A DNA stretch of 64,000 nucleotides from Vitis vinifera (Eukaryota; Streptophyta; Magnoliopsida; Vitales; Vitaceae). Where the stretch lies: positions 4,993,501 through 5,057,500 of the forward strand of contig NC_081810.1 of the NCBI RefSeq assembly GCF_030704535.1. The letters run 5' to 3'. The position numbers and the translations under genes were made by a program. The notes under the pieces are model-generated. The model was not told where the DNA came from, searched no databases, and saw only the letters and a list, made by a program, of their open reading frames with translations. Below are positions 14,654 to 63,115 of this stretch, one piece after another (the first letter of the stretch is position 1; the number at the start of each line of letters is the position of its first letter).

Positions 14654-16066
14654 TCACCGAAGTTTCAAGGCCTTTGCTTCATCTATCTCTTTCATTTTCT
14701 CTTCAAAGGTGTTTTCATCTGCCTGATTGATCCAACCGTACTTCTCCATAAACGGGTTGGATAGGCTTTCAGGTGGGTAGCTGTCAATGCAGTCCTTCCA
14801 AACATTTCCGCCATCTAAATCCCTCGCCACCTCCCACATACAACTGTTGCACTTGAACCCTGCTCCGAAGCTGATCATTAGAACTCTATCTCCCTTTTTC
14901 AGCCTCTTCTTTTCGTCCATGTACGCCAAAACATACCAGAGGCTACTAGCAGATGTGTTCCCGAATCGATGAAGGGTCATCCTTGCAGGCTCCAGATCAT
15001 ACTCAGTCAGCTCGAGGCTTTTCCCGATGCCATCAATGACCGCCTTTCCGCCGGTGTGGATACAAAAATGGTCCACGCCGGTTTTAAAGTTGATGACCAC
15101 TTTCCCACCACCCTTGGAGTTTTGGTACATTTTTCGAACGAGTGAGGCTACCATGTAGCGGAGAAGTTCCCGTACGGGCAATATCTTAGGGGATATCACC
15201 CTAAGGTTGTCGATGAAAGCCCTTGTCGCAGCCTTCGGGAGGCTCTTGTTGAGAAAGAACCCCAGCCGCCCCTGGTCATCTTCCTTCTGTATGCAACACC
15301 CAAATGATTCATCTTTGGCACCGTGGTGTGTGCGGACAAGGCACCTCAGTTTCAGCATGGCTCGGTGCCGTAGGGCTCTTTTGTTGGTCAAAAGCACTGC
15401 GCATCCACCCGAACGGAACAGGCAGTTGGAGAGGATCATTGATCTGTCATTGCCGGTGTACCAATTGGGGCTTAATGACTCCGAAGTCACAACAAGAGCG
15501 TACATATTCTTGTAGGATTTGAAGAGGTTTTGGACAATGTTGATTGATATTAGACTCGCGCTGCACCCCATTCCCGTGAGATTGAAGGCTTTGATGTTTT
15601 CCCTCATCTTGTAACGGTTAATTATCCTGCCAGCCAAAGAAGGAGCCGTTGTGATCATTGATACATTCACAACAAGCGCATCAATCTCCGAAGGAGACAC
15701 TCCAACTCTGTCCAATAGTTTCTCAATGCTATCATTAAAGAACTCATCCATCTCCGAGATGCCATCTAGAACAGAAGGATGTGTTTCGTTGCCGGAAAAC
15801 ACATTTCTCGGGCCATAGGTTTCTTCCCCGATGCCGGAGTTAACAATAGCCTTCAAGAGGAACTTGTACTCCTGGAGACCCAAGCTCTTGTTTCTCCTGA
15901 TCATGTCGCCGCAAAACTCAGTGCTTAGCTTTCTATCGTCGGTTGGCTTGTAACACTGATAATCTAATATGTAACACTCTTGGTCTCTCTTCCCATCAAT
16001 GAACTTCCATAGGAGGAAGAAGAGGTAGAAGACAGGGAGAAGAAACAAATACACCATAGCCTCCAT
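14654..16066 (-). CDS. 3-ketoacyl-CoA synthase, KCS12-like
   Basis: A single-exon gene of 470 residues. The enzyme condenses malonyl-CoA with a long-chain acyl-CoA, the first and rate-limiting step of very-long-chain fatty acid elongation for cuticular wax, suberin and sphingolipids, on the ER. Residues 4-22 form a hydrophobic membrane anchor (family members often have two). The FAE1/CUT1 condensing domain holds the expected catalytic triad: C168 in [15 protein letters not shown]337 in [14 protein letters not shown] and N370 in [14 protein letters not shown]366 is also conserved. Length is slightly short for the family (about 480-510) because the N-terminal end is compact, as in Arabidopsis KCS12, which it resembles along its whole length ([29 protein letters not shown]). 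The first ATG is used and directly precedes the membrane segment. It neighbours an EXO70H gene, as do KCS12 and KCS3 in Arabidopsis. Subgroup assignment is from memory. Confidence 0.95.
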
Positions 16067-16184
16067 TATAGAGAGAAAGTCACGGAGAAAAGGGCGAAAA
16101 GAGGGAAAAAGAGAGACGAGAGAGAAAAAGAGGGACTGATACTTTGTTAAGCACTTTGTTAGATGGGAGGATTTAAATCAAACA

Positions 16185-16190
16185 CTTATA
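16185..16190 (-). promoter_or_regulatory. Possible TATA box of the KCS gene
   Basis: TATAAG on the minus strand, about 120 bp upstream of the ATG. Between them lies a purine-rich (CT-rich on the coding strand) leader. A weak match. Confidence 0.35.
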
Positions 16191-19100
16191 GCAAAGTATG
16201 TATGAGTTGAACATGCATGTGAGTATGGTTAAAAACATGTCCATCGCTCAACTTCCACCAACTCATGATGACCCAATTCGTGACTTTCGTATTGATTTTT
16301 ATTAGTCATCACCGCTCACATATTAGGTGTGTGACCAAAACCAAGTCCAACTCCCTAACTAAATCAATAGTTCTTGCGTGCCACACAGTATATCAATATC
16401 CGCACTTTCCTTCATAACCAAGTCTCCCTTCACAGCCACCATCCACCATCCACCACGATTATTTTTCATTTCTTCTTCTTAAGAAAAAAAAAAAAAGATT
16501 AAATTAATTAACATTCCAAAAGAGAAATTAGCAAGTCAAAACCAGCTAGAGGGATCAAACTCTTTATGGCCAACAGTTAGTGGCTTACCGGAAGGGGTTA
16601 CCAACATTTAAGATTTATAACAGTGGTAGATAGAAGATCGTATAAGTGGGGGGAATAGTAACAGTAGTAGTATGACATGAGATGGACCTTAGCAAAGGTT
16701 ACGTTGGAAGGCCACTGGAAGACCATCAAAAACCAGTCCATGTGAACACATTTATGAGGTAACAGACTTGGGAGGGCCAAGAGAGCCCAGTAATCCAAAG
16801 CCACCTAAGCAAAACAAGTTGGGGGTAAAAAGATTCAAAAAAATTTCCATGTCTGAGACTCTGATGAAGGAAAATGGTAATTCTTTTCTTTTTTTGGCTA
16901 GTTGCGCTTTTAAGGACATAGTCTGCTAAAAGGGTAACTCAGTACAGTTCTTTTATAACAACTTTGATAAATGCGTTGTTTTTGGGTGCAGATTGAATTA
17001 GGATAGGGTGCATGATCAAGGCCGGACAGCTAATTTAGGGCCCCATGTGTGTCAGGTGTGGCCTCCATCAGAAATCAAGGGTGAAGTACCCCAGCCCTCG
17101 AACATATTTGGGTCACAACAATCAAGTCACATGGGTTGATTAGATTTGAATTGCGTTGAGCAAGAAAAGATTTTGGACCGACCAAGGGAACAGCGGATTT
17201 GTAATGTAGGTTAGCACCGTGGCATAACGAATTATTGGAGGGGCGTGCATTAATGAATAAACATGCAAATGATAAGGTAACATTTAGAGCCCACACAAGT
17301 AGTTGAGACTCTAAATTTGATTGGTGGGTTGTCTCCACTCCTTGACAGCTTGTTTGATAGAAATATGTTTAGTTTTCAACACCATATATTGAATTGTGCA
17401 TTAATGCAACTAAGTCTAACAGTAGTGTTAACCTTTTTAGGGCTGTTTGATACACGACAGTACGAAATGACAATCAATATTTTGTTTTTATTCATATTTT
17501 TAGGCAAATAAAAATGAATTTAATGATTATATTTTTTTTAAAAATGAACTTAGGAATTCAATATTGAAATGATTATTTATTTTCATTCTAATATTTGGTG
17601 ATAACAAGATCAGGAATAAAAAAAAAAAAAATTGATAATAATAACCTTACACATAATTTAAAATAAATAAATTTTGGGAGTTTTTTTGTTATGAAATAAT
17701 AAAACTAAATATATATACTCAATACATAAAAAATTAACATAAAAAAATCATACAACCCTAATATACAAATATTTAATTATTCTTTTTATAAAAAAATGAA
17801 TAATTTGTCATATTTAAGCCGGGGTAAAATTATATTTTACCAAAAAAGAGAAAAATATATTTATTATAATATTTAAATTCTCAAAGTTACCAAATATTTA
17901 TTATAATATTTGAATGAAATCCAAGGATAAAATTGTAATTTTATATTATTTTATATTGTCTTCCAAGATGAATGAGTCAAATATCACCTATTTGTGATAA
18001 AATTCAAATCCGACTTATTAGTGAGATTCGATTTTTATATAAATAATTTTTTTATTATTTTCCTACTTTTATAAAATTGATCCAAATATGAGATCTCTAT
18101 TCTTAATCCCCATTCTCAACGCCAAAACACCCCCTTAGTGTTACATTTTTTTTTTGGGAGTTTTCAACCCATATAATTTATTTTATATTAAAAATCCTTT
18201 AAATATATTTTATAGGCATCAACGTGGCCAGAAATTTTCTTTAGATAATAAAACTACAACTTTTTTTTTTTATCAAAATGAGCAAAACAAATAGTTAATG
18301 ACTGGTGTTTTAAGCTAAAGTTTGAAAATATACTTGATGATTACAATTTTAAGTTTAAGTTTAAAATCCCAGTTGAGTTGACTACTATGATTTTAGGATT
18401 TTGAAATTTTTGAAAGAATATTAAAACTATGTTTAGTTTTTGGAAAGTATTAAAAAAAAGACAAAAAAATGTTAAAAAAAATAATATTTTCATGTTCGGT
18501 TTTTAACATGAAAAATAAGAAAAAAATTAAATATAATTAAAATTAGTTAAAATTTTATATATTTTTAAATTATTTAATTTTTATATAAAAAAGAAAAAAG
18601 AAAAATAAATGAAATGAATTTGAAATAACATATAAAATAATTTATTAATTTTAAATCTATTTTTTTTCACTTTTTCTTTCCCTTATATTTTTCCATGTAC
18701 TTTTTCGGAACCAAACAGAACCTAAAAAAATAACAATGTTGAATTAAAAATTAAAACTATAGTTATTGACTATGATTTCAGACTTATTTACGTATAATTC
18801 AAGACCATAATCACCGATTATAGTTTTTGAACTTTTTTTTTTGTAAGGTTGAGTTTTTTCTTTTAGAACGTTTTGTTTTATTTTATTTGAAAATATTTTA
18901 GTTTATTTTTTAAAAAACAAAATATAAATTATCAATTTATTATATTGATTAAGATTTATGTGGTTACTAAATTTATGCCACTGTCAAACATTGGCATGCA
19001 CAACTAGGTGCATGATGACATGGAGCCCTACCACCATCCACTCAATCTCAACACATAGACGAGGAAATAGCACACATGAAAAAAAAATAAAATAAATAAA

Positions 19101-19198
19101 AAATAAAAAATAGGCCGGTTAGGTGAACAGAATAATTGAGGTCTTTGAAGGATGAGAGGTAAAGCCATGGTTAAGTTATTGAAGTATGGAGACCTAAA
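16191..19198. other. Intergenic region, no gene seen
   Basis: Mostly AT-rich with many homopolymers from 17.5 kb onward. Short frames near 16.6-17.5 kb have no recognisable family signature. A possible small transposon lies near 18430-18722. Confidence 0.65.
18430..18722. mobile_element. Possible small non-autonomous transposon
   Basis: GTTTAGTTTTTGGAAAGTA at the left and, reading inward from the right, GTTTGGTTCCGAAAAAGTA form an imperfect inverted repeat about 290 bp apart. The TCTGTTTGG-type end is common in plant hAT-like MITEs. I could not define a target duplication. Confidence 0.3.
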
Positions 19199-19259
19199 GA
19201 CGGACTTTTCTGGTAATTTAAAAAAATTATTCTTAAATTGTTATAATAAAAGAAGTTAT

Positions 19260-19298
<39 letters not shown>

Positions 19299-20577
19299 TA
19301 GTTTTTGCCACCTAGGAGAGAGGGTGAACATATAATTTTTTTTATAACCAAAATCGTCTTTTCAAAAGACGATTTTATTTCCATTTAAAAAATAAATAAA
19401 AATTTAAAAGAGAAATCGTTTTTTGAAGAGACGAGTTACCATGAAAAAAAATAAATTTTTTTTAAAAAAAAATAATATTTTTTTAAAAAAAATCCAAAAA
19501 AAAAGAAATCCTCTAGTCACATTAAAAAAAATTAATATTTTTTTAAAAAAATTCCCAAATTATAAATATAAAAAAAATATTATTTTTTTTCATGGGAACT
19601 CATCTTAGATGAGTTCCCTTGAGGCTTTTTTTTTTTTTTTTTTTTTTTTGGGAATTTTTTTTAAAAAAAAAAATTTCATGGAAACTCGTCTTTTTTTGTT
19701 TTTTTTTTTTTTTTTTAATTTGGGATTTTTTTTTAAAAAATATTAATTTTCTTTTCATGGGAAAGAGACGAGTTCCCTTGAGGTTTTTTTTTAGTTTGGG
19801 ATTTTTTTTATTAAAAAAAATATTATTTTTTTTCTTGGGAACTCTTGAATATACGAGTTCCCTTTAGGGTTATTTTATTTTATTTTTTAAATTTGGGATT
19901 TATATATATATATCTTTTTTTTTTTCTAATTTGAGATTTTTTTTTTCATGGGAACTCGTCTCTTCAGGTTTTTTTTTCTTTTTTTTAATTTGGGATTTTT
20001 TTAAAAAAAATATATATTATTTTTTTTCATAGTAACTCGTTTTTTTTTATTTATAATTTCATGGGAACTCGTCTCTTCAAGAGACGAGTACCCTTGAGGC
20101 TTTGTATTATTTATTTATTTATTTATTTATTTTTATTTTTTAATTTGAGATTTTTTTTTTCATGGGTACTCGTCTTTTCAAAAGACGAGTTCCCTTGAGG
20201 TTTTTTTTTCTTTTATTTTTTTTAATTTGGGATTTTTTTAAAAAAATATTATTTTTTTTCATGGAAACTCGTCTCTTGAAGAGATAAGTTCCCTTGATGA
20301 ATTTTTTTTTTTTATTTGGGACTTTTTAAAAAAAAATATTATTTTTTTTATGGGAATTCGTCTGTTCAAAAGACGATTTCCCTTTTGAATTTTTATTTAT
20401 TTTTTAAATGAAAATAAAATCGTATTTTGAAAAGACGATTTTGATTAAAAAAAAAATTTATCCGTTCACTCTCTCTCTTAGGTGATAAAAACTATCATAT
20501 ATTTATAATAACTTCTTCTACTATAATAATTTAAGAATAATTTTTTAAAATTACCGTACTATCGAGAAAAGTCCGCC
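19199..20577. mobile_element. 1.4-kb foldback element with an array of short hairpins
   Basis: The outer ends are inverted repeats: GACGGACTTTTCTGGTAATT at the left and, reading inward from the right, GGCGGACTTTTC and a similar continuation. The match persists for roughly 240 bp (TTATTCTTAAATT, GAAGAAGTTATTA, TAGTTTTT-CACCTA-GAGAG, AAAATCGTCTTTTCAAAA). Inside, about a dozen copies of a palindrome like ACTCGTCTCTTCAAGAGACG recur, commonly with CATGGGA before and TTCCCTTGAGG after and separated by T/A-rich spacers. Cores lie near 19355, 19415, 19597, 19765, 19842, 19950, 20075, 20167, 20266, 20358 and 20418. There is no coding capacity. A possible target duplication is AGACC on both sides, a few bases out. 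Confidence 0.75.
19263..19297 (+). repeat. (AT)n microsatellite inside the left arm of the foldback element
   Basis: About 16-17 AT units. The right arm has only a short TATCATATATTTATAA equivalent, so the run expanded after the arms formed. Confidence 0.85.
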
Positions 20578-23500
20578 AAAAGACCGTGAGCTTCAAGGAA
20601 TGAAGCTAGGGTTTGATGTTACGGTGAGTCTTATCCTAAAGATTTGAATGCAAGTGGAGTTCAAGTGCTACAAAGACAACTCGTGAGTTGTGGGATGAAG
20701 TCAACTCGTGAGTTTTAAGATGAGAATTGACCTGGCGGTCTGTTGTCATCTCAATGGAAGACCAAAGGAAAGGTTAGGTGAAATAATAAATAAGTCATAA
20801 GATTGCATTCTCTTCTCACTTACGTCAGTAGGTTTGGGTTGGAAGTAGTCTTCAGTCTTCAGAAGACCTAATTTCATTTGGTTGCAAGTCCTATTCCCGT
20901 GCTCCTTCCACGAAAGCACTTGTAGAGCCTGCAACTGGGAACTGGGAACTGGGAATTGCTTCAAAAAACCTTTTTCTAGATGGAGAAACAGAAAGTAGCT
21001 TTCTGAAAACTTGTTCAAAAAATAGGGTATTTTGTGAGATGATATTTTAATTATTTTTGGTTATTTCTATTTGATTTTTGAGGATTATTTTAAAATATAA
21101 TTTAAAAAATATGGGAAATGATTGAAAATAAAACATTATAGAAAAAATTTATTTTTTAAAAATATTTGAAAACATAAAAAATAATTAAAATAGAGAATGT
21201 TTTCAAGTTCTTAAATGGGCTTTTACTTTAGAAAACACCATTAAATTGTTTTTAAAAACCATTCTCAAAATCTATTTTTTTTAAACGATTTTTGAAAACA
21301 TCCTGAAACATACACTTTTTTTTTTTTTTTTTACTTTCTTCTTTATTTTCTTTTTGGTGGTTCACATTTTTTAAAAAACAATTCTTAATGTTTAAAAACC
21401 GTTATTAAAACCATTAATTCTAAGTGTTTTTTTTTAAAAAATAAAATCATGCGTTAGAATTTAAATAAAAAATATTTTTTCAACCTATTTTTTATTAACA
21501 TACTTTACATGTATATATAATGCAATAGTTGTCAACCTATTTTCATATTTTTAATTGTTTTTAAAAAAATTATTAAAGTAAAAACATCTTAAATTTCATT
21601 CTAAAGAATCATTAAGAGTACAACTTGAGCAGGTTGACATGGTAATGGTTAACCGGAGTCCAACCTGAATTAAAAAACAATCAATCCAAACTCAACTCAA
21701 CGTGACCTCTAACTCAAGATATTCAACTCAAACCCAACTCAACCTAATTTTTTAAAACTTGGGTTGAACTTGGGTTTGTAGAGTTAAATTCGGATAGATT
21801 GGGTTAAACTCGAGTTGATTGAGTTAAACTTGAATTAGTTGGGTTGATTGGATTATATGATTCAAAATCCATATATGCTGATTTTGAAAAAACTTTTTTT
21901 TTTTTTTTATGTATATATTTATACTAAGATTTAAATAATAAATAATACAAATTTTAAGATAACAATAAAAAATTAAAATAAAGTTATATGTATTTTTAAA
22001 AAAATAAAAAAAAATGTATGTTATAAAAATAAAAATAAAGTTATATATCTTTTTAAAGAAATGGACAAGTATATCATACAATTTTAATTTAATATTTTTT
22101 GTTTAAAATCCATATTCATTAATAAATTAACATTATAAATATTATAAAAATATTAAATTGGGTTGAAGTTATAAGCTCAAGTTGTTCTAACTACGACTTG
22201 GATCCAATCCAAATTGAATTCGGGTTAAAGAAATTTAATCCAAGTGCAATCTAAATAATAAAAATGTTTGCCTAAATATGCTCAAACATTGAGTTGGGTC
22301 GGACCAACCCATCCAACTTACACGCTTAAAATTCATTATGTTTCCAAACCATTATTTTCTCCCAAACATAAACAACTAGAAATTATTTTTAAAAACAATT
22401 ATAAACAAGCTTTTAATATCTTGAATCATTTAATTCTTCCAGTAATGTTTGGGATGGATATACATAATGTCCATGTCAAGAGTCTCTAAATGTAACATTA
22501 GTGGTTGATATGATGATGTCATAATTAAACAAGCTAATTATTATTGTTTGAATTAAATTGATAAATTATAAAAATAGTTGATGCACTGAATGAGTTATTT
22601 GACTCAAATTATTAGTCAACCAGTGCATAATTTTGTCAATTAATAGGGTTTGACTAATCACATCATTACAGTCATGATGGAATTAAATTTAGACCTCACC
22701 AACTTTTAGATTTTGGCTTCATTTTCCAGCTCTAACTGGCCAGGCCCTCTGCAACCACCTCAATCACTCTTCCTGCTGCTTTGCTTGACCCATCGGAAAC
22801 AAAGGATTTTTTTCTTTCTTTCTATTATTCCTTGCTAGAAACAAGATAAATTTATATAGTCCACACTCAGATACCAAAAGAAATTCATAGAATGTAGTTG
22901 GTTTGGACATATTTTATTTTTATTTTTATTTTTAAAATTAGAGAAAAAAAAAAGAATTTTTAGAGATTTATATTATAAAAAATAATGATGTTAGAAACGG
23001 TTTAAAATTGGTTGGGGTATCCAAAAAATCTTTGTTTATTATCTTAGATTTTAAAATTTTTATATAATGTAAATATATGTCCTCAAAATCAAAAACTGTT
23101 TTTTTAGTTATTTTCTATTATTTTTACTTGTTTTTTTAAAAACTATTTAAAAAAATAATTATACAATGATTAAAAATAAAATATTAGATATAAAAATTAT
23201 TTTGAAAACATATTTAAAAATAATTAAAAACTGGTTAAAAACATTTTAAATTTTCAAAGAGATTTTTGTTATATAAAACATAAAATAACAATTTTTAAAA
23301 ATTATTTTTTATAATTATTTTGGAAAACAGTTAACAAACAGACTATATTTTTTTTTGTAGAAGATGTTTTACTTCTATATAAAAGTTTATATTAAAGAGC
23401 TATGAAAATCTAAAGTTTTTAAAGATATTTTTAAATATATTTATGTATAAGCTTTTGACATAAATCGATTAACCATATCTATATTGATAATTGTACTGTA

Positions 23501-26985: not shown

Positions 26986-26988
26986 TTA

Positions 26989-31286: not shown

Positions 31287-33170
31287 TCACCCACGCGAAA
31301 GCGACGATGGAGAAGAAGACGACGACGACGACGTGCTACCGGAAACCCCGGTACCGTAAAACAGATCTGACAAGTAATTTCCCATATCGTCTGGTGCAAA
31401 TCTCACCACTGACTCCGAACCCGGTTCCCTCCTCAACCTGGCCCGGTTCTTCTCGTAAAAGGCTCTATACGTCGGTTCTAGTTTCTTAGCAATAGAGAGT
31501 TTGATTTCTTCTTGAAGCTTGTTATCTGGTACGACCCACGATGTTTGCTTCCGGTACACTTCTTCAAAGGCGGAATTAAATTTCTTGAAGCATTCTTTCG
31601 CTTTCTCTGGCGAGATGTCAGCCGATGGATTCTCCGGCAGTGATGAGAACACTTTGCTCCAACCCATGCGTTCGTAGTTGGATGCGTACTGTTTCACCTT
31701 AATTTCGTGTTTTGCGATCCAGTCATCTCCGAGGAGGTATCGGATATTGGAGGTACGGACTTTGGTGGTAACGTACTGGAGATTGTTAGCGAGGAAGATG
31801 TATGAGAGAGAGACGTCCTTGTAGAGCTTGGCCCTGCCATCGAGTTTGCAGAGAAGCACAAGCACGAGCCAGGCTAGGCGCAAGGAAATCGCCGATGTTG
31901 GATCATCGTCGGACTTCGGGTTCTCAAAGTAAGATTCTGGCATCGATGATTGTACTGTTAGCGGCCATTCGGCGACAATGACAGAGAGAACTCCGCTGTA
32001 GTCGGAGAGGAATGAGACGTAATTCATGACGTATCGTGTCAGAGGATGAACTCCGCCGCCGCGGATTGGCGTTTTGGATGAATCCTTCTGAATCGCCGCT
32101 TCGAAGTCCGATAGCATTGTTCTGACGGCTTCACCGAGCCTGATGAGAGCACTGGTTGCTTGTGATAGCACGGCGGAGGTTGACTCAAATGAAAATATCG
32201 AGTCGATTTCAGGCCAGAGATCAGAGATGGATTCATAGAGATCAAGTATTCTGAACATTTTCTCGGGCGTTTTCTTGCATCTGGCAACATGTTCTGGGAA
32301 TCCAAACAGAGAGAGCGCACCTTCCTTTGTAATCTCCGAGAAACACGACTCTCTGATGGAATCAGATGCAGAGAAAACACGATCACAGAGAATTCGCTCC
32401 CCGTAGAAGAGAGTTTTCACCGCAGCCTTGACAGCATTCAACCAATGCCTAATTTTGTTTTCGATCAACTCCCAGTCCATCTTCTGAATCTGCGAATAAC
32501 TCAATCTCTCGACTCCAAGATGATACAGGCTTTCATCGACAATCGACTTGCGCACAAGTTTGTAAATCTTCACACACTCCTTACCATAACCAGAAGAAAT
32601 CATACAATCCGCGATGGCCTTGAGATCCGCCATCGCCAACTCCGATTCCCTCTCCACTCCAGAAACGGACTCAATGGAGGCTCCGAACTCCTCCTCCGAC
32701 GCACGGTCGTCTTCAAAGTCGGAGATGCTCGACCTCGCAGATACATGCGAGGAGACGGACTCGGGGTCCAAGTACTCCCGACTGGAAGAGAGAATCTGGT
32801 AGAACTCCTTCTCGAGTCTCTTCATGGCGAGCTGCATGAGGTTCTGAGATCGGATGAGCTTCTCTGAAGTGGAATCATGGTTGACGAAGAAGTGCATAGC
32901 GCGTTGCAAATCCGCAACAGCGCTTAAGAACTGCTTGGCTTCGCTGCGGCTGGAATGAAAGAGGGAGGTGAAATTGGCGAAGGAGGACTCGTCGGAGTAC
33001 CACTTGGAGATGACTGATTGAGCGTTATCGATGTTCTCGTCCATCATGGACTCATGAAGCGGGGAGGAAGGCGCACGCGAGGGTGAAGATTGGTGCGAGG
33101 ATGAAGGCGAAGAAGCCTTGAAGAAGATAGTCCTCATCCCTTTTCTAGGCATGTAAAGTGAAATCCTCAA
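31287..33170 (-). CDS. Exocyst complex component EXO70, EXO70H clade
   Basis: A single-exon gene of 627 residues. EXO70 subunits tether secretory vesicles to the plasma membrane through phosphoinositide binding; the H clade is plant-specific and includes members linked to defence, trichomes and polar secretion. Visible family signatures are MQLAMKRLEKEFYQILSS near residue 112, DLKAIADCMISSGYGKECV near 187, the core IQKMDWELIENKIRHWLNA, GERILCDRVF, DLYESISDLWPEIDSIF, GGGVHPLTRYVMNYVSFLSD, the SYIFLANNLQYV helix, and the C-terminal VRFAPDDMGNYLSDLF. A Ser-rich tail (residues 610-625) follows. The first ATG gives MRISLYMPRKGMRTIFF; residue 7 or 12 may be the true start, since related proteins begin near MPRKGMR or MR-FF. 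Absence of introns is typical of the H clade. The closest Arabidopsis relatives from memory are EXO70H5-H8. Confidence 0.95.
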   Translation of the reverse strand: MRISLYMPRKGMRTIFFKASSPSSSHQSSPSRAPSSPLHESMMDENIDNAQSVISKWYSDESSFANFTSLFHSSRSEAKQFLSAVADLQRAMHFFVNHDSTSEKLIRSQNLMQLAMKRLEKEFYQILSSSREYLDPESVSSHVSARSSISDFEDDRASEEEFGASIESVSGVERESELAMADLKAIADCMISSGYGKECVKIYKLVRKSIVDESLYHLGVERLSYSQIQKMDWELIENKIRHWLNAVKAAVKTLFYGERILCDRVFSASDSIRESCFSEITKEGALSLFGFPEHVARCKKTPEKMFRILDLYESISDLWPEIDSIFSFESTSAVLSQATSALIRLGEAVRTMLSDFEAAIQKDSSKTPIRGGGVHPLTRYVMNYVSFLSDYSGVLSVIVAEWPLTVQSSMPESYFENPKSDDDPTSAISLRLAWLVLVLLCKLDGRAKLYKDVSLSYIFLANNLQYVTTKVRTSNIRYLLGDDWIAKHEIKVKQYASNYERMGWSKVFSSLPENPSADISPEKAKECFKKFNSAFEEVYRKQTSWVVPDNKLQEEIKLSIAKKLEPTYRAFYEKNRARLRREPGSESVVRFAPDDMGNYLSDLFYGTGVSGSTSSSSSSSPSSLSRG

Positions 33171-48591: not shown

Positions 48592-48725
48592 ATCCATCAA
48601 GTTTAAAAGAAGATTAGTTGGCCTCATACGAAAGATCATTCTCCAACGCTCCACCTTTCTACATATCAAATTCAGCTTCACTAAGCCAGTGATTCTATCT
48701 AAGTTATTCCCATATTCTGCCAAAC

Positions 48726-49814
48726 ATGAAAGGAGTGGATCTCTTCTGTGCTTCTCCAGCTTCTACAGCCATATGTTCAAGCATGGATCAGCGCTCCATG
48801 GTCCGCCGCGGCACCAGGCCCATCAACCACCATAATCCTTATCTCAGTGATAGGCGAAGAAGCCGGCCACTTGCGCCTGTCCCATGTTCATCTCGGTTAC
48901 CCATCAGTCCTACGCTTCACCATCACAAGAGTAGAAAGAGTTCTGCTAAGCAAACTGATCTCAGGAGGAAGAGCTCTGCTGACAAAAATGATCTAACCAG
49001 CCCTCCTGGTTCCTCCAGATATCTTCTAAGTGACACACCTTTCTTCAACTTGTTACCGGACTCTGATCGTGTCTCAGCATTGGTTCCTACACAAACTGCA
49101 AGGCCACTGGTTCCTACACAAACTACAAGGCCACTGGTTCCTACACAAACTACAAGGCCACTGGTTCCTACAAAAACTGCAAGGCCTCGGCGCCTGAACT
49201 CGAATGATTCTCCTGCCTTAGTATCATCTTCATCTGCTCGTTCCCACGACCAGGTTCTTTTTGTTCCCCCACATCAAATTGAAGGTTTTTTTTTTTTTTT
49301 TGCAAGAAATTTCATGCGTATTATAATTGTTATTATCATTTGGTTTTGCAGGTGGTGGTTTTGTGGGTATCATTGCATTGCAAGGGGTGCGAAGGAAAGC
49401 TGAGAAAACACATATCCAAAATGGAAGGTAAGTTTAGTACACAGAAAAGTATGCTTTACAACTCAATCTTCCAAAATTTCTTGTGGAAATCCGTGAGAAT
49501 TACTCTTCTTTTCATTTAAACATGAATTATGAGATGTCTATATCCTTTTTCTACGAAAAGAAACCAAGTCGGTTTCATGAGTTGTCCTCCAATTCTTAAG
49601 CACTACAATTCAAAGAAACATTGTTCCATTTTCCACAGGCGTGACATCATTCAGTATAGATTTGGCCACAAAGAAAGTGACTGTAATTGGAGACGTGACC
49701 CCCTTAGGAGTGCTTGCAAGCGTGTCGAGGGTGAAGAATGCACAACTCTGGCCATCTCCAACATCTTCCTCATCGCCATTGTCATCCTCGGCCATGACTA
49801 GCCTCACTTACTGA
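48726..49814 (+). CDS. NaKR-type heavy-metal-associated (HMA) domain protein
   Basis: Three exons (48726-49253, 49352-49427, 49639-49814) with GT-AG junctions give 259 residues. The N-terminal end MKGVDLFCASPASTAICSSM matches the conserved start of Arabidopsis NaKR1 (SODIUM POTASSIUM ROOT DEFECTIVE 1) and relatives. A long Ser/Arg/Pro-rich linker follows, with SSRYLLSDTPFFNLLPDS and SSSARSHDQ near the end. The C-terminal HMA fold starts VVVLWVSLHCKGCEGKLRKH, with metal-binding CxxC in HCKGCEGK, then EGVTSFSIDLATKKVTV. NaKR1 is a phloem protein needed for Na/K handling and long-distance FT movement; whether this paralog shares that role is inference. The first intron follows the family position just before VVVL. 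The linker carries a 27-bp minisatellite. Confidence 0.92.
49077..49184 (+). repeat. In-frame 27-bp minisatellite in the NaKR coding sequence
   Basis: Four head-to-tail copies of a unit encoding PLVPTQTTR (first copy ALVPTQTAR, last PLVPTKTAR). The middle two copies are identical at the DNA level as far as I can see. Confidence 0.92.
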
Positions 49815-52800: not shown

Positions 52801-54654
52801 TAGGCAGGTCGACCCGATTAAGTTTTGGGACCTTATCGCTAGTCAAAGACTTGACAATGAAGAAGTGCTTGATCATCTCCTACACAAATTGGTCGGGAGC
52901 TGAAGTCGTTCCCTTGATGAGTCCATGGCAGGACGAAACCAATCAATATAGTGACATTGAAATGCATGGCGTGCAGGTTGAGCCCCTTTGATTCTTGCCC
53001 ATGGGGTCGCTGCATAGGTCGTGCCACTGCGTTGGAACTCTAGGTCCGTGACATTATGCCATCAATGGGTTGAATGGCACATATAAGCTCAATGTTAGCC
53101 CATTGACTTCAAGCATGCGACATCGAGGCCTCATGAGATAACACATTGGCCTCATGAGTGACCTATGATAATGACAAGGTGACACAAAAACACAATGCCT
53201 TGTACAATGCGTGGTGAGCCATGGGCATAATGTCATGGTCCATTACATTAAGATGATATTGGAAGAGGCACAATGATGCAGCAGTATTGAGACTGACTCA
53301 GATAAGATATCTGATGGTAGGCACAAGGGTCTGATGCCTTGTGCGTGGAGATGAGGAGTCATGGGTGCAATGCCCTGGCTCGTTACTACACCAAGAAGAC
53401 AAATGCATGAGCAGGTTGCATTGGTGTAGATGCAAGGGAAACACACAAGCATGCTGGTTGGCATGCTCAAGAAGCTTGCAGTAAATTGCCTAGACATGCT
53501 ATATCAAGCTGGTATGTGGATTGATGCAAGAGGTAGCAACATAAGGAGTTGAAATGGGTAAGGAATGGGCCGAAGACATATGAAATTTTCAAAGTTGGAT
53601 TCAAAGTGTGATTGTAATTTGAATTTGAGTAGGAGTTCAAATTCTTATTGTAATGGTAAAGAGGGTCAAGAAAAGTGACATGATCTAGAGAGTAGATTAT
53701 TGAGCATAACTACAAGTGGCTTAAGTAAGGACATATGTAATTGCTATGATGATGGCATGAGTAGGAGAATGAATGATAGGTAGTAATGACAGAGGCCATG
53801 GACCGGGAAACTACCCAGAATATGTGTGATATGAATGGACTAATTCAGGAAACTTGGATGTATATACATAACGTGCATTACCAAGCCTTCTATGCATGAA
53901 TTTATGAAAGAGAATTAAGGAAGTTTTACTCAGAGAAGTCTTTGACCATTTCTTATAACTATTTTGGGAGAACTAATATAAGTAGGGGCTTTTCCCCGGA
54001 AAATGTTGTGTTGCTTGTGTACTTTTCTTTATTTCTTTATCTCATGGAGCCTGAAGATGACTGACTTTAGATCTCATGAAAATATTGGGGTAAAGTTTGC
54101 GCCACTGACACGAATTATATAGACATTACATCTGGAAACAGCAAAAGGTTAAACCATTTTTAAAATTTAATGCATGGAGATGAGCTCAAGCAGGGTGAAC
54201 CTGACCAGTGTGCAAAGCTTTGTTCAATACAAGAATATTCTGTGGAGGAACAAAACCTGACATGCCCACAGTACAATTTGAACAGGCCCTGTTGATACCC
54301 ACCCAGCAAATATGGGTTGCCATGGGCTAATGTATTTATGCATCTCTTGGCCTCTTACCTAAAGATTGTATGGTACCATGCTGAATTGGCCTTTTCTCTT
54401 AAAGTACCCTTCAAGTTTATCATATAGTTTGGCAGCCCATTTCATTTCAATGTCACAGTTAGCGGCTATGGGCCTTCTAAATATTCAATACCATATTTCA
54501 CATAATATTAAAAAGGAACCCCAGCCACTCCACCATGGGGTTCATAATGAAAAGAGCTTGGCTGTCCAAACCAAACGCACCCATACCTTACAAATTAACA
54601 ATTCCATCATCTGCTCCACTGTTGTTCAACTCACCCTTCCAATATGTACATGTG
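49815..54654. other. Region between NaKR and the first dirigent gene, no gene assigned
   Basis: No recognisable protein. Between about 52.4 and 54.1 kb the sequence is less AT-rich and has the texture of a degenerate LTR element (for example AACTAATATAAGTAGGGGCT near 53971, possibly an LTR promoter), but I found no domain, primer site or paired LTR. Confidence 0.5.
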
Positions 54655-54662
54655 TATATATA
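54655..54662 (+). promoter_or_regulatory. TATA box of the first dirigent gene
   Basis: TATATATA about 50 bp upstream of the ATG, implying a leader of only about 20-25 nt. Confidence 0.7.
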
Positions 54663-54711
54663 GGGACACTGAAACTCATCTTCATCCATCCCCTCTCTTG
54701 ACTAAGCTCAA

Positions 54712-55665
54712 ATGGCAAAACATATCTTACTCACATCCAGAGCACTCAAGGCCACACTCCACCTCTTGCTCCTAGCCATTGCCCTTAGATGTGTCCATGC
54801 AGCTCGAATCCTCACCGAAGAGGATGCAGACCCTCCAGTCATGGTGCCTGCACCTGAAGCACCTGACATGGCTCCAGTGGCAGGCCCTGCTGCCACCATA
54901 CCAACCGCTGCAAGCCCCTTGACAACCACTACTAGCGCGACCGTGGCTGATGAACATCCACCCTTGTCATTCTTCATGCATGACATACTAGGCGGGTCCA
55001 ATCCTACCACAAGGGTTGAGGCCGGGATCATTGCCAATACGCAAATCAATGGCTTGCCTTTCACTAAAACAAATGGTGGGGTCTTCCCTATGAATGGTGG
55101 TGTTCCTCTTGTCACAGCCAATGGCGTCATCAACAACAATGGCATTATGAACAACAACAATCTCCCATTCCTGGCTGGACTCAATGGCGCATCCACCAGC
55201 ACTGTGGTACAAAACAATGGTAACAACAATGTAGTCACCAATGGAGACACACTTCCATTTGTGACACCTGGCCAGCTCCCAGCCGGAGCCACTCTTCAGA
55301 AGCTGATGTTTGGGACTATTACAGTGATCGATGATGAACTCACAGAAGGACACGAGATCGGTTCCTCAGTTGTTGGGAGAGCACAGGGATTCTATTTAGC
55401 TAGCTCATTAGATGGGAGCAGCCAAACAATGGCATTCACAGCATTGTTTCATGAGGGTGATCATCATGAAGAGGACACACTCAGTTTCTTTGGGGTACAT
55501 CGCACGGCTGCACCAGAGTCTCAGATTGCCATTGTTGGGGGGACTGGAAAATACGAGAATGCAAACGGATATGCCTCAATTCAGACACTTCATCCAACCG
55601 ACCAGCACACAACTGATGGCGTTGAGACACTTCTTCATGTCAGTGTCTTCATCTCTGATCAGTGA
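54712..55665 (+). CDS. Dirigent protein, ESB1/DIR10-like (long N-terminal type)
   Basis: A single exon encodes 317 residues. A signal peptide (residues 1-31, cleavage near CVHA-ARI) is followed by a Pro/Ala/acidic region (35-80), LSFFMHDILGGSNPTTRVEA at 86-105, an Asn/Gly-rich insert (110-195, runs of NNN), then the rest of the dirigent fold: LQKLMFGTITVIDDELTEGH, VGRAQGFYLASSLDGSSQTM, FFGVHRTA and IAIVGGTGKYENANGYASI. Dirigent proteins steer stereoselective coupling of phenoxy radicals; the ESB1 group acts in the root endodermis to organise lignin in the Casparian strip. The insert between the two halves of the domain is characteristic of this group. A near neighbour of the same type lies downstream in opposite orientation. 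Confidence 0.93.
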   Translation: MAKHILLTSRALKATLHLLLLAIALRCVHAARILTEEDADPPVMVPAPEAPDMAPVAGPAATIPTAASPLTTTTSATVADEHPPLSFFMHDILGGSNPTTRVEAGIIANTQINGLPFTKTNGGVFPMNGGVPLVTANGVINNNGIMNNNNLPFLAGLNGASTSTVVQNNGNNNVVTNGDTLPFVTPGQLPAGATLQKLMFGTITVIDDELTEGHEIGSSVVGRAQGFYLASSLDGSSQTMAFTALFHEGDHHEEDTLSFFGVHRTAAPESQIAIVGGTGKYENANGYASIQTLHPTDQHTTDGVETLLHVSVFISDQ

Positions 55666-57000
55666 TCACTAGCTGGCTCTACCAGTGCCATCGTAGCATG
55701 GAACCAAGCTTGTGTGTGCAGTTTCTTTGAATGTGAAAGTTTCTATGACTGAATGAAAAAATGAAGTCTTTTAAGCCTCTATAATTAGTGTGATCAGTGA
55801 ACCATGACCATGCAAAGAAGAGCATTTCAATTTCTGAAATCACCCATGACCATCAATACTACCTTATAGATCTTGAACTCCGACAGTCCAAGAAAATTGT
55901 ATGACAATGCTCTTATGCTGGATCACCCGACTGCATATTGAACGCTTAAGCACATTTCTGAGACCACTATCCCGTGAATTTGGTAATCAAACAATCGAAC
56001 CAAGCATAAGAAAGTTCCCTTAAAGGCACAATAGTCAAGAATTTAATGGAACTACGGACACCAGCAGAGGACCAAATAGAAAGAAAAAGAGTACTCAAAC
56101 GAACTTATATAGTTTGGAATTATGGGCAAACTGAATCTAGTCTTACTGTATACTGTGGAAGGCCACATTTAAATTGGTCCACCCAGGAATCAGAATAACT
56201 TGAACTTTTCTGTTCTTCATTTAAATTTTTGAGCCAAAATTCCAAAATCAAAGGCAATATCTTCTCTGACTGTAGAGTCATTTTTACTTTTCATTTGTCG
56301 GTAAAGTTTTCGTCTTTCTCATCTCTCGGGGTCATTCCAACAAGGAATTCAAAAAATAACTTCTAAGTTGTAGATCCCAATCTTAATAATAAAATTTTCG
56401 GAGTTCTTTTTTTTTTTCTTTGGCCTGTCTCTTCCAAATTCATGATGGAAACTATTTCAAGTCTAAGAAACTACTCTCAATTTAACTCCGAAGGGTGGCT
56501 AAATTCAAATTCAGCTCTCTTCTCTTGATCCTTTGGAGAGTGGAAACAAGAACTAGGAACAGGGCTGAGATAAGAGAGAACTCTTGACTTCTTTCCTAAT
56601 ATTGAAACTTGAACGTTAATGTAGTTCCAATTTCTTAGAGACTGAGGTAAATTCAAACAACAAGTAGATGATTTTTTCTCCGTTATTTTAGGAAGAGGAA
56701 TGAGGAGTCAGAAAGGGGAGGATATCTAAATCAAGAACATTATTTCTACTGCTGCCTACTTATTCCATGATAAGGACCAAACCAGTTCCTATATCTAATA
56801 ATATGGGATGTGATTATTTTATATTAAAAATATTAATAATAATGTAGTTGTTATCTTCATTTCAGAATCTCACAAAAATTCATTAGACTGAGTTGCAGTT
56901 TCCAGAAGGATTAATAAAGATGCAAGTTTAGGTAGTAGGAAAAGCACAAGGTATTCTCTTATAAAAATGTTCTACACAACAGCCATGCTTAATCCACGCA
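55666..57000. other. Spacer between the two convergent dirigent genes
   Basis: No coding frame of note; AT-rich, presumably the two 3' ends and their untranslated regions. Confidence 0.7.
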
Positions 57001-57909
57001 CTAATGGGCAAGATACACAATAATCTGGAGCAAGGTCTCTGTTCCATCGGTATTATGCTGATTGGCACCTGGAATGGTCTTAACCGTGGCATAGCCCTCT
57101 GCATTTACGTACTTTCCGGTGCCACCCATGATGGCAAGCTGGGATTCAGAGAGCAGTTCGATGAACACCAAAGAAGCTGAGGCTACTGGCATAGCCATCG
57201 CTCTCAAACATGGCTGTGAAAGCCATGGTCTGGCTGCTCCCGTCTTCAGAACTTGCTACATAGAAACCTTGTGCCTTACCGACCAAACCTGACCCGCGAT
57301 CATGTCCTTCGGTTAGCTCATCATCAATAACTGTCATTGTCCCAAACATAAGCTTCTGAAGGTTAGTCCCAGCAGGGAACTGACCCCCATTGAAGACAGG
57401 AAGACCAGAGCCTCCATTGATCACGTTGTTTCCATTGTTTTGAATCACATTAGCTGTGTTTCCACTAAGGCCTGTTAGGAAGGGAATATTATTGTTGTTG
57501 ATGAGTGCACTGTTGCCGTTATTGAGGGGAACACCATTTTTGACTGGAAGTACCGCACCATTAGGCTTGGCAAAGGGGACTTGGCCATTGACCGCTGGAT
57601 TAGTTACAATTCCAGTCACGGCCCCAGCTGAGGGGTTTGATCCACCAAGAATGTCATGCATGAAGAATGACAACGTATGGTGGAGGTCGGTATTGGTAAC
57701 TGTGGTACTGGTGGCTGCAGCCGGGGCTGTAGCCACAGAAGTGACACTGGATACAGGCGTTTCAACTAGATCAGATGCCTCAGGCGCTACGGGGTAACAG
57801 GTGCTTCCTCATCAAGGATTCGAGCAGAGATGGCACAAGGGATGGCGAGGGCTAGGAAGAGGAAAGATATGGCCTTAAATGGAGCAGAAATGAGCATATG
57901 GTTTGCCAT
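57001..57909 (-). CDS. Dirigent protein, ESB1/DIR10-like, second copy with two frameshifts
   Basis: The full family layout is present on the minus strand but in three reading-frame segments. From ATG at 57909 the frame gives signal peptide MANHMLISAPFKAISFLFLA to ARILDEEAPVTP, then hits a stop; one base seems missing near 57790-57795, because the expected VAPEASDLVETP continues in another frame. The middle segment holds LSFFMHDILGGSNPSAGAVT, an Asn/Gly-rich insert, LQKLMFGTMTVIDDELTEGH and SFFGVHRTAL. Near 57148-57153, a CTCT run appears two bases short (or one long), and SESQLAIMGGTGKYVNAEGY to LLQIIVYLAH and TAG continue in a third frame. Everything else is intact, so either these are sequencing errors or a very recent pseudogene. 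It resembles ESB1 more than the first copy does in the FESDGYASSLSFFG region. Confidence 0.8.
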
Positions 57910-58788
57910 GAGGCTGGGAGGACCAAAAGCCCTGAAGGGTATCTAATGATTGGATAAGGTTTGCTTTGGTGACAATGGGTTAAGATAAGTTGAGCATATA
58001 TAGAGCATATTTTAGAACCAAAACTAGAATGATTAAATGGAGTAGATGAGATGGAGTAGGTACTTAAGTATCCCCACCGGTGTATTGGTTAGAACTCAGA
58101 AACCTAAGCCATTGTCTTCTCAATATCAACTGGGTAAGAGGAATACTCAAAATTTAAGATGCCAAAATTGATACATCCTGAAAAACCACTGCTTCGGAAC
58201 TCAATGTCTTGGAATATCACTTCAGTGCCTGGAGGACAAGATGGCACACTCTTGATTCAGCAGTTTCTAGACTCCACAACTATGTTTGCACGAGGGGTAG
58301 ATCATTCCCCAGGACCACTCGCACACATTTTTTGCAACTTCTCGTCTTCATCTGTGTGTATCCAACAATTTGAGTCTACAGTAGGAGTTCAAAACTGCCA
58401 TGAGTTGTCACCATCATTCTTCTTGCCACTAATCTGAACGTCCTGTGACAAGGATACCAAGTTTAGTAAATTACCTCGGCTATGCAGGGTTCTAGAACAG
58501 TCAAAACTAGTCGTTTTATAATCTTTGTGGTATTTTGTTTCTAAGAAACTTCAAATAAAAAAAGCAACATACCCACTTGCGTGTGAAAATTTGTGCCATT
58601 ATCCCCTTGATAAAAATTTGTCCAAGGATTTAACAGCCACTGCAATCTGGTAACATCATGCCTGGTTCAGTGGCAACGACTTCATTGAATTTAGTATTCT
58701 GAAAATTAGAATATTGAGATTCAGTAATCCCTCAAAAGTTACAAAATATCAGAATGATCTTCAAGCTTCTGCATCTCTTCCTCTAGAC
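57910..58788. other. Upstream region of the second dirigent gene and downstream region of the PPR gene
   Basis: Besides the dirigent TATA box I see nothing assignable. A 92-codon plus-strand frame (58159-58437) has no recognisable motif. Confidence 0.65.
57996..58002 (-). promoter_or_regulatory. TATA box of the second dirigent gene
   Basis: TATATAT on the minus strand, about 87 bp upstream of the ATG. An intact promoter argues mildly against long-standing pseudogene status. Confidence 0.6.
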
Positions 58789-60294
58789 CTATCCGTAGGC
58801 AGAGACCAGTTCCCTTACAAGCCCCCCTGCACCTCTGTCTCCAGGACAGGCATCCTTAACCAAAGCCTCCCAAGCCTCCAAATGAAATCTCATCTTCCTT
58901 TTCTCCATCTCCTCCAAAACAAAGCATGCACCATCAATCTTCCCATTCTTCAATAATCCCACAACCAAATCACAAAATGATTCTAAACGTGGGCAATGGC
59001 CACACATTAACATTGCACTCAAAACCTTCAAGCCTCCCTCAAAATCCTCAACCTGGCAAAAACCATCAACCATCATCCGATATGTGGCTGCGTTTGGTTC
59101 ACAACCTCCAACCTGCATTTCAACTAAGACTTTATAAGCCTCCAGAGCTCTACCTTCTTTACACAAATGATTTATCAATATATTATACGTCACAACATCT
59201 GGTTTAAACCGCCTTCTCTTCATCTCAAGAAGCAAAGTTTTTGAGTCATCAATCCTACCCCTCCTTCCAAGATCACTCATCAAAACCCCAAAATTTAAAA
59301 GGCGTGGTTTGCATCCCTGATAGTCCATATCAAACATCATCTTCTTAGCTTCCTTGTACTTGCCTAAAGAGCACAAACCTTCCATCAACAGTGCATATGT
59401 AACAGCATTCGGGCGGTGCCTTTTCTGAATCATGTCCTCAAGCAAACCCATAGCCCCATCCAAATCACCCTTTCCACACAAAAACCCAATTAGACTGTTA
59501 AAAGTCACAACAGTGGGCTTAACTTCTTTGTCAATCATTTCCTCAAACACTTGCCACGCTTTATCCCACTCCCCCTTTCCAAGCCATCCTTTTATTATTA
59601 TATTAAATGAAATTGAATTCCTCCGAAAGCCCATTTTTGTTGAGCGATCAAATATGCCAATTGCATCCAGAAATCGATCATTCTCAACAAGTACATTAAG
59701 AAGGGTATTGAAAGACACTAATGTTCGGTGGCAATTGAAAGAAGGCATTCTCTGAAACAGTTCAACGGCCTTTTCAGGCATTTGGGATTTCCCATAATGC
59801 TGAATCAATGCAATGAAAAGCGTCTCTCTACATCGAATGTTAATATTCTGTAAGTAATCAAGAAGGGTTTCAACAGCTTCGAAATTGCGAGAACGAGCGA
59901 GTTTGTATACGAGGGCAGAGTAGGAGGGATAGTCGTGTTTGAAGCCCATTTGTTGGTATTGATTGAAGAGAGACAAGGCGTCATCTGGGTCTTGCACGGA
60001 TTTCAGATCGGCGAGGAAAGGAATGCGTTTGCGAAGCCTTGAGGTGGATCTATGAGGTGGCTCACGGCGAGATTCGGTGGTGGGTCTTCTGGGGCGAAAA
60101 GTGTGGTATTGTTGAGAAGGTTTGTATTCAATAAAATGGCGAAATAGGCGTGGCAGTGTGTGATTAATTGCTTTTGTTCGTGAGTGGAACATGGAAACAG
60201 CAGAAGAAGATAGGTTCCTGGTCGGAGGGAAAGATGAAGAATTTCTCAGAGTTTGTTCGGTTAGTGAGAAAATCCTTGAAGGCCGCGTGGACAT
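58789..60294 (-). CDS. P-class pentatricopeptide repeat protein, At1g07740-like
   Basis: A single exon of 501 residues. The N-terminal 60-90 residues are rich in Ser and Arg with few acids, as in a mitochondrial targeting peptide. From about residue 120 to 470 there are roughly ten 35-residue PPR motifs, for example NSISFNIIIKGWLGKGEWDK (226), TVVTFNSLIGFLCGKGDLDG (261), NAVTYALLMEGLCSLGKYKE (296), DVVTYNILINHLCKEGRALE (366) and NAATYRMMVDGFCQVEDFEG (401). No E or DYW domain follows, so it is P-class, expected to bind organellar RNA for processing, splicing or stability. Residues FLADLKSVQDPDDALSLFNQ and KHDYPSYSALVYKLARSRNF resemble At1g07740 from memory. It lies just downstream of RAD51D on the same strand; the Arabidopsis genes are also neighbours. 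Confidence 0.94.
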   Translation of the reverse strand: MSTRPSRIFSLTEQTLRNSSSFPPTRNLSSSAVSMFHSRTKAINHTLPRLFRHFIEYKPSQQYHTFRPRRPTTESRREPPHRSTSRLRKRIPFLADLKSVQDPDDALSLFNQYQQMGFKHDYPSYSALVYKLARSRNFEAVETLLDYLQNINIRCRETLFIALIQHYGKSQMPEKAVELFQRMPSFNCHRTLVSFNTLLNVLVENDRFLDAIGIFDRSTKMGFRRNSISFNIIIKGWLGKGEWDKAWQVFEEMIDKEVKPTVVTFNSLIGFLCGKGDLDGAMGLLEDMIQKRHRPNAVTYALLMEGLCSLGKYKEAKKMMFDMDYQGCKPRLLNFGVLMSDLGRRGRIDDSKTLLLEMKRRRFKPDVVTYNILINHLCKEGRALEAYKVLVEMQVGGCEPNAATYRMMVDGFCQVEDFEGGLKVLSAMLMCGHCPRLESFCDLVVGLLKNGKIDGACFVLEEMEKRKMRFHLEAWEALVKDACPGDRGAGGLVRELVSAYG

Positions 60295-61106
60295 ATCTGT
60301 TTTAGCCTCTGAAGTCCCGGCTGGGAAAAGGAGAAAAAGAAACTAGTAGGAAAACTTGAAGAAAGGGTTTAAATTAATAAATTATATTTATATACAATTT
60401 TTAAATTGATTTAATTTATTTTAATTTTTCATAAAAAAAAATACAATTTAAAATTTTAATTATTTTAAATTATATTTAATTTTTGTTCATATTTTATTAA
60501 AAAAAAAAAAACCAACATAATAAAATATTTTTTAATTTTTTTCTGAAATCAAACATTAATATAGTATTTCTCAAAAATGGGCACCTAATTTTATGACAAT
60601 TTCTAATTAGCTTTCAAATTTCGTTTTAACCATCTCTTCTCTGGGTTTGCTTTGAAGAGAAAATAAAAAAACTACAAGAGAAGAAAGAGAAAATTTGGCA
60701 AGCACCAGTTTGTTTGTCTGAGATTAGAAGAATGAAACAGGAATTTTGGTTTAGATCCATACTCAAATCCATTTTAACCCATCAAATATTTCTGAAAAAA
60801 ATTCAAAATTCTATTTTTGTAAATATTACACTTCTATTTTATTACTATTTGATTATATGTTTTAACATCAATTAATCATTTTGTACTCATACTTCAAGGC
60901 CTTTTTTAAGCCAGGACAAACACAAACATAAAATCATTGTCATAGTCAGGCCTCTGGTAACAAGCAAAAGAGAGGTTCTCCTTCGTAATTGCAATATTCA
61001 AAAGTTATGGTACAAAAACACACCCAATTCCTTGTAACATAGTTTGACTCTTTGGTGTCTTTTCCTCTCCAACCTCCAATGTGGTACAAATCAAAAATAT
61101 AATTAG
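60295..61106. other. Spacer between the PPR gene and the RAD51D 3' end
   Basis: About 0.8 kb with an AT-rich stretch at 60.37-60.60 kb. No coding content seen; it should hold the PPR promoter and RAD51D 3' untranslated region. Confidence 0.65.
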
Positions 61107-63115
61107 TCAAATCATAAACCTAGCAGCCCTGCCAGAAGCCTGAGAAAGGAAAAACAAGAATAAAAATAAATGGCGTCCTCAAAGTCTATTGACAGAAGAG
61201 GGCACTGTGAGAATTTGGTGCCCAAAAACACAAAGAGTACATTAGATGTGTTTTAGGTAAGAATCATGAGGGTTAAAAGATGAATCCAACAAAGATGATG
61301 ATAAATTTAATGGACCAAATGATCTATACTTCAAAAAGACGAGGAAAAAGAGAGGGAGCATACCATGTATGAGTGTTTCAGAATGGACATGTGGCAGATG
61401 CTGCTCCCTGGGTCACGGGAGAGCAAAAGCCGCACATGTGGAATGCTCTTCCAACTCTCTCCAAGAGCTGGTTTAAGGATGCCTCCCTCTCCACCCACCA
61501 TGTGATTAGTCACCTTGAGCCAATGTATCATAATGGTAATTATTTTAAGGATGGAAACTTTGATGATCGGCTATATCATTTGCAAAACCAATAAATTATA
61601 ATGAAAAATGATGGTTATTGGGTAAATGTAAGGAAAGCATATCTGAAAATAAATATATAATAGCTCTGTTGTGTTGGACAAGTGCTAAACAAATAGTAGA
61701 TATATCATTTTCAAGGGTATAAGAGTGGATGAAAGCCATAAATTGGAGCCTTAAAATAAGTCATCTTATTAGTGAAGATAAACTTGTGATATTAGATAGC
61801 TTAAAACATTGGCACCTGATAACACTGTTGATATCAACAAAACATTCCTACTCCTTTTTATCAGATTATGAATATGAATCAACTAATAAAAGTGGAAGAA
61901 ATGGGGAGAGTGCAGGAGTGCAAGTTTTTTGTGTAACATGCTTTATTAGATTACTGCATTGCTGAATTAATACAAAGAATCAAGAAAGCTGAGGAGTCCC
62001 AGCTGTCAAGAAGATATAATTGTAATTTCAAGTACACAACTTACAACTACTGCAAGATTATGCTCATGTGCTAACTTCTTTAGAAGAAATCCAGCAGAAA
62101 TCATCAAAGCACGTCCTGCATTCACCCATCAGACATGAACCAATCAATATTTGCATGCATGAGTTGTACATGACATTTGAGAAACACAAACAATGACGAT
62201 GGGCTTGATTATCTAGCTGCTAGGTAAAAAACACCTTTTATATTTTCACTAATTCAAGAACATAATAGAATGCCATTTCCAGGGAAGATTCAAGAATAGA
62301 ATATTCAGAAACAATAGCAAACAACTTTTAGTACAATTCGATGAACAATGTGGGTACAACTATGAATTATGGAATTACTTTTACAACTATGATCATCATT
62401 GCAGTGATGTTTGAACTCATGACAGTTCTTTTGAACTAAAGAAAAATTGCAATTAATTAATTACTTAACTATGCCTGATTAAATCATATAGCCTTTATTA
62501 AAGTAGCCACAGCCTTTACTGGAGAATATCCTAATCATCCTAACTGAAACTGCCTGCACAACACCAAACACGCCCCCTCCCTTCCTGTTACCACACGACC
62601 ACACTCCCCCACACCCAAACCCAGAAAAATTCATATTGCACCATTTGTTTGTCAAAATAACAAAACCCAATTGACTTACATGCCCGACGAGGAAACCCAG
62701 TCAGGGAACACAATATTTAGTATAATAGAAGGGTTTTTCTAGTAAATTTTTTAATTTTTTTTTTTTTGAAGAAAATGTAATTCCCCAATATACCAGGAAA
62801 CTGGGATATATTATAATCCTTACCATGTGAACCACTGCCTCCAAGGATTGGGGTAATCAGCGATGATATTGAATCAACAATAAGCAACCTCACCTGATCA
62901 GCTCCTGTCTGCACCTGAACCAGTTCTCATACATTCAGTAACATGGAACTGAAAAAACTCAATGAAAATATACCAGCCAGACTGCTCCATTTAAATTAAA
63001 CCTGAGATCTCAAGCTGTACTCTAGCTGATGTACCACATCCAACATTGCAAAGATATCAAACACTGAATGGCACAATATTTGGCTCATTACTTTTTCAAG
63101 AATATTCTGTTTGAC
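61107..63115 (-). CDS. RAD51D: DNA repair protein RAD51 homolog 4 (RAD51D), C-terminal half
   Basis: Five exons with GT-AG junctions and consistent phase give 152 residues and a stop: 63002-63115 ([18 protein letters not shown]), 62824-62914 ([20 protein letters not shown]), 62045-62115 ([20 protein letters not shown]), 61364-61513 ([35 protein letters not shown]) and 61107-61139 ([13 protein letters not shown]). The Walker B strand LLIVDSISS and the loop [17 protein letters not shown] fit plant RAD51D closely. RAD51D is a RAD51 paralog of the BCDX2 complex that helps load RAD51 in homologous recombination and, in Arabidopsis, affects defence-gene expression. The Walker A exon and N-terminal domain are not visible between 63116 and 64000 and must lie to the right. 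No disabling change is seen. Confidence 0.93.

Follow-up and report, generated by a model that had tools for sequence, protein, structure and literature searches.

A grape gene neighbourhood on contig C6 is probably one copy of a gamma-triplicated block with Arabidopsis descendants in three segment pairs

A stretch of 64,000 nucleotides of Vitis vinifera DNA (C6:4993501-5057500, hereafter the window, whose numbering is used unless a contig is named) raises the question of whether it is an unfragmented ancestral block uniting three Arabidopsis segments, as a preliminary description had proposed, or one copy among several. The window carries genes for KCS, EXO70H, RPL35, NaKR, two dirigents, PPR and RAD51D, and these eight genes and their order are as first described (Table 1). 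Pfam agrees with the families given for all eight, and RAD51D is recognized also by PDB chain matches, the best of which are to chains named RAD51 homolog 4 (5.1e-24), which we take to be RAD51D, with RAD51 homolog 3 matching more weakly (8.9e-05). The sub-type letters of EXO70H, NaKR and the ESB1-like dirigent come from names and neighbourhood, as Pfam resolves the family level alone; by that reasoning the EXO70 gene may be of the H type. Its true start may be an inner ATG.

Table 1. Features of the window and its flanks (window numbering unless stated)
Feature	Position	Strand	Structure and evidence
Ankyrin B gene	C6:4953.8-4956.2 kb		37 kb left of the window
Probable terminal part of a Ty3-type retrotransposon polyprotein	3-2012	+	open frame; RNase H-like and integrase zinc-binding Pfam domains
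Satellite-like array	5625-7400		short related units; similar sequence near C8:14916000
AIM24 domain, perhaps a partial or broken gene	9299-9811	+	PF01987 1.1e-11; 86/205 profile positions
KCS (3-ketoacyl-CoA synthase)	14654-16066	-	single open exon, 470 aa; PF08392 3.5e-116
EXO70	31287-33170	-	single open exon, 627 aa counted from TTG; Exo70_C 5.7e-129
RPL35 (uL29-type ribosomal protein)	44310-40786	-	four exons, intact 123-aa protein, large last intron
NaKR-type HMA-domain protein	48726-49814	+	three exons, 259 aa; HMA 8.7e-13
Dirigent DIR1	54712-55665	+	intact, 317 aa; dirigent Pfam 3.3e-34
Dirigent DIR2	about 57004-57943	-	open frame broken at about 57790-57808 and about 57149-57153; dirigent Pfam 1.5e-21
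PPR protein	58789-60294	-	one exon, 501 aa
RAD51D, 3' part	61107-64000	-	3' exons 61.1-63.1 kb; last exon read by eye
RAD51D, 5' exons with Walker A stretch	~63.9 kb to ATG near 66.33 kb	-	read by eye
Laccase-type multicopper oxidase exon	5785-6834 (right-flank stretch L048 numbering)	+	right of RAD51D
Cupin gene	8328-9870 (right-flank stretch L048 numbering)	-	right of RAD51D

The end of the block had been placed at 63115, a coordinate that cuts a gene, because RAD51D reaches about 2.3 kb past the window and its 5' exons lie mostly outside. The flanking ankyrin gene, laccase exon and cupin gene indicate that the block continues beyond the window; the cupin gene presumably corresponds in position to At1g07750/At2g28680. 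Coding-looking fragments at 38.5-40.2 kb were set aside, the two that were scanned being without a Pfam family, and neither Rfam nor a tRNA scan gave a hit in the window.

The frame of DIR2 is broken twice, and the gene is either a recent pseudogene or the product of an assembly error. The corresponding C13 gene is unbroken and shares 81% identity across 190 aligned positions, and DIR1 is 67.5% identical to its own C13 counterpart. Likeness is 74% between DIR2 of C6 and DIR2 of C13, compared with 58% between DIR1 and DIR2 of C6, and the DIR1/DIR2 split seems to predate the triplication discussed below. In cotton, DIR25- and DIR9-type genes are given as adjacent in the accessible part of one study (PMC6826536). 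Dirigent names were consequently rejected as a marker of the individual copies, given both the early split and the cotton genes lying side by side. Dirigents were searched genome-wide by family only, and two more genes with long open frames, at C5:11506034-11508846, stand outside the assignment to the C6, C13 and C8 copies.

The closest relatives of the window genes lie at two further loci. Across the 495.6-Mb assembly (21 contigs), KCS is closest to C13:2221320 (65%) and C13:2202337 (59%), the other listed matches reaching 51% at most, while EXO70H is closest to C13:2229414 (64%) and C8:14927418 (60%), with other long matches at 39% or below. RPL35 matches two loci genome-wide, the window and C13:2240691-2242188, and the sole other locus that matches NaKR beyond the HMA domain too is C8:14883133-14884643. 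PPR is without a close relative genome-wide, its next best match by score being 34% identical, and the single-copy RAD51D has genome-wide matches at its own locus only.

The 100 kb around each partner locus was read with protein searches, which replaced nucleotide and tblastx comparisons between the window and the C13 and C8 loci, in which numerous short matches and repeats (5.6-8.9 kb and 19-20.6 kb) had come up. The C13 copy contains, in order, ankyrin A, two KCS genes, pectate lyase, EXO70H, RPL35, SF3B3/SAP130 and three dirigents. At C13:2.19-2.28 Mb, KCS, EXO70H, RPL35, DIR1 and DIR2 are shared with the window, and order and orientation are kept in all five; by hand calculation, the chance of this order and these strands for five genes is 2/(5! 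x 2^5), or about 1/1900 if the arrangement were random. The C8 copy contains NaKR, EXO70H, pectate lyase, ankyrin A and ankyrin B, of which NaKR, EXO70H and ankyrin B (C8:14.88-14.96 Mb) are shared with C6 in inverted order with consistent orientations (3/3), ankyrin B being 67-79% identical by exon to the gene in the C6 left flank.

Pectate lyase and ankyrin A have long matches of at least 70% on C13 and C8 in the genome-wide searches and, for pectate lyase, nowhere else. Short fragments of 61-91% identity elsewhere count against the triplication proposed below (pectate lyase on C10; ankyrin A on C3, C15, C7 and at C6:23.56 Mb). The genome-wide search detected no such pectate lyase in the window or elsewhere on C6; ankyrin A was likewise not found in the window region, the genome-wide search giving one 40-residue ankyrin fragment on C6, 18 Mb away, and the fetched stretches of the C6 region contain no SF3B3. 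At C13:2225970-2226828, pieces of pectate lyase are separated by stops, and this gene is either broken or intron-split.

KCS, EXO70, PPR and dirigent genes each have many members in this genome, and such families might have become clustered by chance or repeated tandem spread, without any common ancestral block. We give this explanation almost no weight. The two nearest KCS relatives, the best EXO70H match and the single further RPL35 locus all fall within 40 kb on C13, so the clustering is not a matter of chance; the nearest relatives lie in two other loci with order and orientation kept, and a crude calculation, in which places are assumed uniform and independent, puts the presence of three more best relatives within a single 80-kb stretch at 4e-12. 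The content, order and orientation of the genes and their relatives within the genome are direct observations, and together they place three collinear segments in one genome, with the nearest relatives of the marker queries (KCS, EXO70H, RPL35, NaKR, pectate lyase and ankyrin A) in the partner segments, as expected of a gamma triplet.

Their age we infer. Nei-Gojobori Ks for 17 gene pairs, 14 of them between copies, is 0.91-2.95 in 16 and infinite in one, values that are old but near saturation and too saturated for dating. The Arabidopsis lineage has undergone two further duplications, beta and alpha. The window very probably represents the C6 member of a gamma-triplicated neighbourhood whose Arabidopsis descendants lie in three segment pairs. 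The core-eudicot gamma hexaploidy would have triplicated the neighbourhood into the C6, C13 and C8 copies, each of which would then have lost different genes; after beta and alpha, the C6-type copy would have given rise to At1g07/At2g28, the C13-type copy to At3g55/At2g39 and the C8-type copy to At3g09/At5g02. Vitis chromosomes 6, 8 and 13 are described as gamma homeologues in the accessible part of an earlier study (PMC3219971).

The window region is the fullest of the three copies. Among 12 families counted, C6 holds 9, C13 7 and C8 5, a count that leans towards C6, with C13 and C8 read across 100 kb each, and that leaves out the laccase of C6, a VARLMGL-motif gene of C13 and a fatty-acid desaturase of C8, each seen in one copy. 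Among the copies read, PPR, RAD51D and cupin are seen on C6 alone and SF3B3 on C13 alone; judging from Arabidopsis, all four would have been in the block before gamma. The window is thus not the unfragmented ancestor it had been taken for, being one copy of three in a region that holds 9 of the 12 families.

Comparison with Arabidopsis was made by locus names and neighbourhood, most of the names coming from papers and some from general background, and the segment-to-copy orthology is what we infer from them. Among the background entries, we take At1g07740 to be a PPR gene, At3g09500 to be RPL35, At3g09550 and At1g07710 to be ankyrin genes and At1g07750 and At2g28680 to be cupin genes; PPR and the cupins presumably add to the likeness of At1g07/At2g28 to C6. 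We know of no RPL35 at At1g07/At2g28 and of no dirigent, PPR or RAD51D, all of them window genes, at At3g09/At5g02.

The Arabidopsis names first proposed recur in the accessible parts of the papers (KCS3, KCS12, EXO70H5, EXO70H6, EXO70H8, ESB1, At1g07730, At1g07745, At5g02600 and At5g02610), in which At2g28660 is HMP18, an HMA protein, At1g07745 is RAD51D by list position, and KCS3 and KCS12 have been published as a pair of paralogues (PMC9928185). Collinearity of the window with At1g07/At2g28 stands by locus names, RAD51D included: as far as these sources go, KCS, EXO70H, HMA, dirigent and RAD51D follow the same order by locus number, although in Arabidopsis the genes are divided between the two members. 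The list of three segments was, however, incomplete, as the same families are also found at At3g55, At2g39 and At3g09. The accessible sources place AtPLL2 at At3g55140, EXO70H1 at At3g55150, RPL35 at At3g55170 and SAP130a/b at At3g55200/55220, with EXO70H2 at At2g39380 and RPL35 at At2g39390; they further place EXO70H4/H3 at At3g09520/09530 and the pectate lyase AtPLL1 at At3g09540, and name an ankyrin gene at At5g02620, the number after RPL35 (At5g02610). One Setaria dirigent is listed there as collinear with At2g28670, At2g39430 and At3g55230, and also with At1g65870 (PMC10548141).

According to the same partial sources, At3g55/At2g39 resembles C13 in having pectate lyase, EXO70H, RPL35, SAP130 and dirigent in C13 order, but lists no KCS, which C13 has. 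At3g09/At5g02 resembles C8 in NaKR, EXO70H, pectate lyase and ankyrin, with RPL35 in addition, and differs from the window in that no KCS is listed. A grape gene named after At5g02620 in one such source is on chromosome 19 and was uninformative, and a literature search yielded no usable phylogeny of grape EXO70H genes.

A presence-absence table of 11 families, coded by hand from locus names with several entries and absences supplied from general background, gives these likenesses a number; for Arabidopsis, published lists cover the absences of KCS and EXO70, and most other absences are without one. The favoured pairing has 4 mismatches in total, compared with 10 to 18 for the five other pairings in both codings. 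At1g07 and At2g28 together have 1 mismatch with C6 (8 families when the names come from papers, 10 when background names are used), and At3g55 and At2g39 have 2/11 with C13. The ankyrin family of C6 was coded unknown, and entering ankyrin B shifts any pairing by at most 1 mismatch.

The remaining segment, At5g02600-02610, had been counted with the other two as truly corresponding to the window, which would make it a beta-level duplicate from the same gamma copy. RPL35 and NaKR are neighbours in the window as they are there, RPL35 was not found on C8, and one grape locus is in general expected to correspond to up to four Arabidopsis segments. However, the window does not fit the segment better than C8 does: for At3g09 and At5g02, 6 of the 10 families compared are mismatched against the window and 1 of 11 against C8. 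In the surroundings of At3g09/At5g02, pectate lyase and ankyrin lie near EXO70H and RPL35, whereas C6 yielded no such pectate lyase and its ankyrin gene is more than 50 kb from KCS. We therefore consider true orthology of this segment to the window unlikely; At5g02600-02610 is most likely out-paralogous to it and belongs with the C8 copy, and as the descendant of a C8-type copy would resemble the window only through their common pre-gamma ancestor.

Some observations fit the pairing less well. RPL35 is found in At5g02 (and presumably in At3g09) and in grape on C6 and C13 only, so pairing with C8 needs a loss in grape. Beta should have given two segment pairs per copy, yet one each was found, and EXO70H7 (At5g59730), NAKR2 (At2g37390) and At3g53530 have no place in the scheme. 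The accessible part of one study describes NAKR1 and NAKR2 as co-linear paralogues (PMC6109787). Apart from these points, RAD51B (At2g28560) and RAD51D (At1g07745), named by their list positions, are each found close to a member of the At2g28/At1g07 pair, which is probably a coincidence.

If the pairing holds, NaKR1 or RPL35D, given to window genes by neighbourhood, would be wrong orthology calls, and At2g28660 would be the better positional counterpart for the window HMA gene. A comparison with Arabidopsis from a single locus can in this way mix orthologous and out-paralogous segments. Several of the families have roles in barriers or walls: KCS in long-chain lipids, ESB1-type dirigents in the Casparian strip, EXO70H in wall secretion and NaKR in ion handling. 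That they have stayed linked in all three gamma copies and in six segments of Arabidopsis might be owed to common regulation as well as to slow decay, in which case the neighbourhood would join cell-wall and diffusion-barrier genes for a reason; we consider this very improbable.

Whole-genome triplication, followed by more duplication on the Arabidopsis side and by complementary loss, is a process that is already well known, and the locus illustrates on a small scale how genes are lost from three gamma copies in a complementary way. The gamma blocks reported previously, as far as the accessible part of that study describes them, likewise comprise three homologous segments on the same three Vitis chromosome numbers (PMC3219971). 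They differ in that the study used Amborella contig 431, and their likeness to the window block is one of chromosome numbers.
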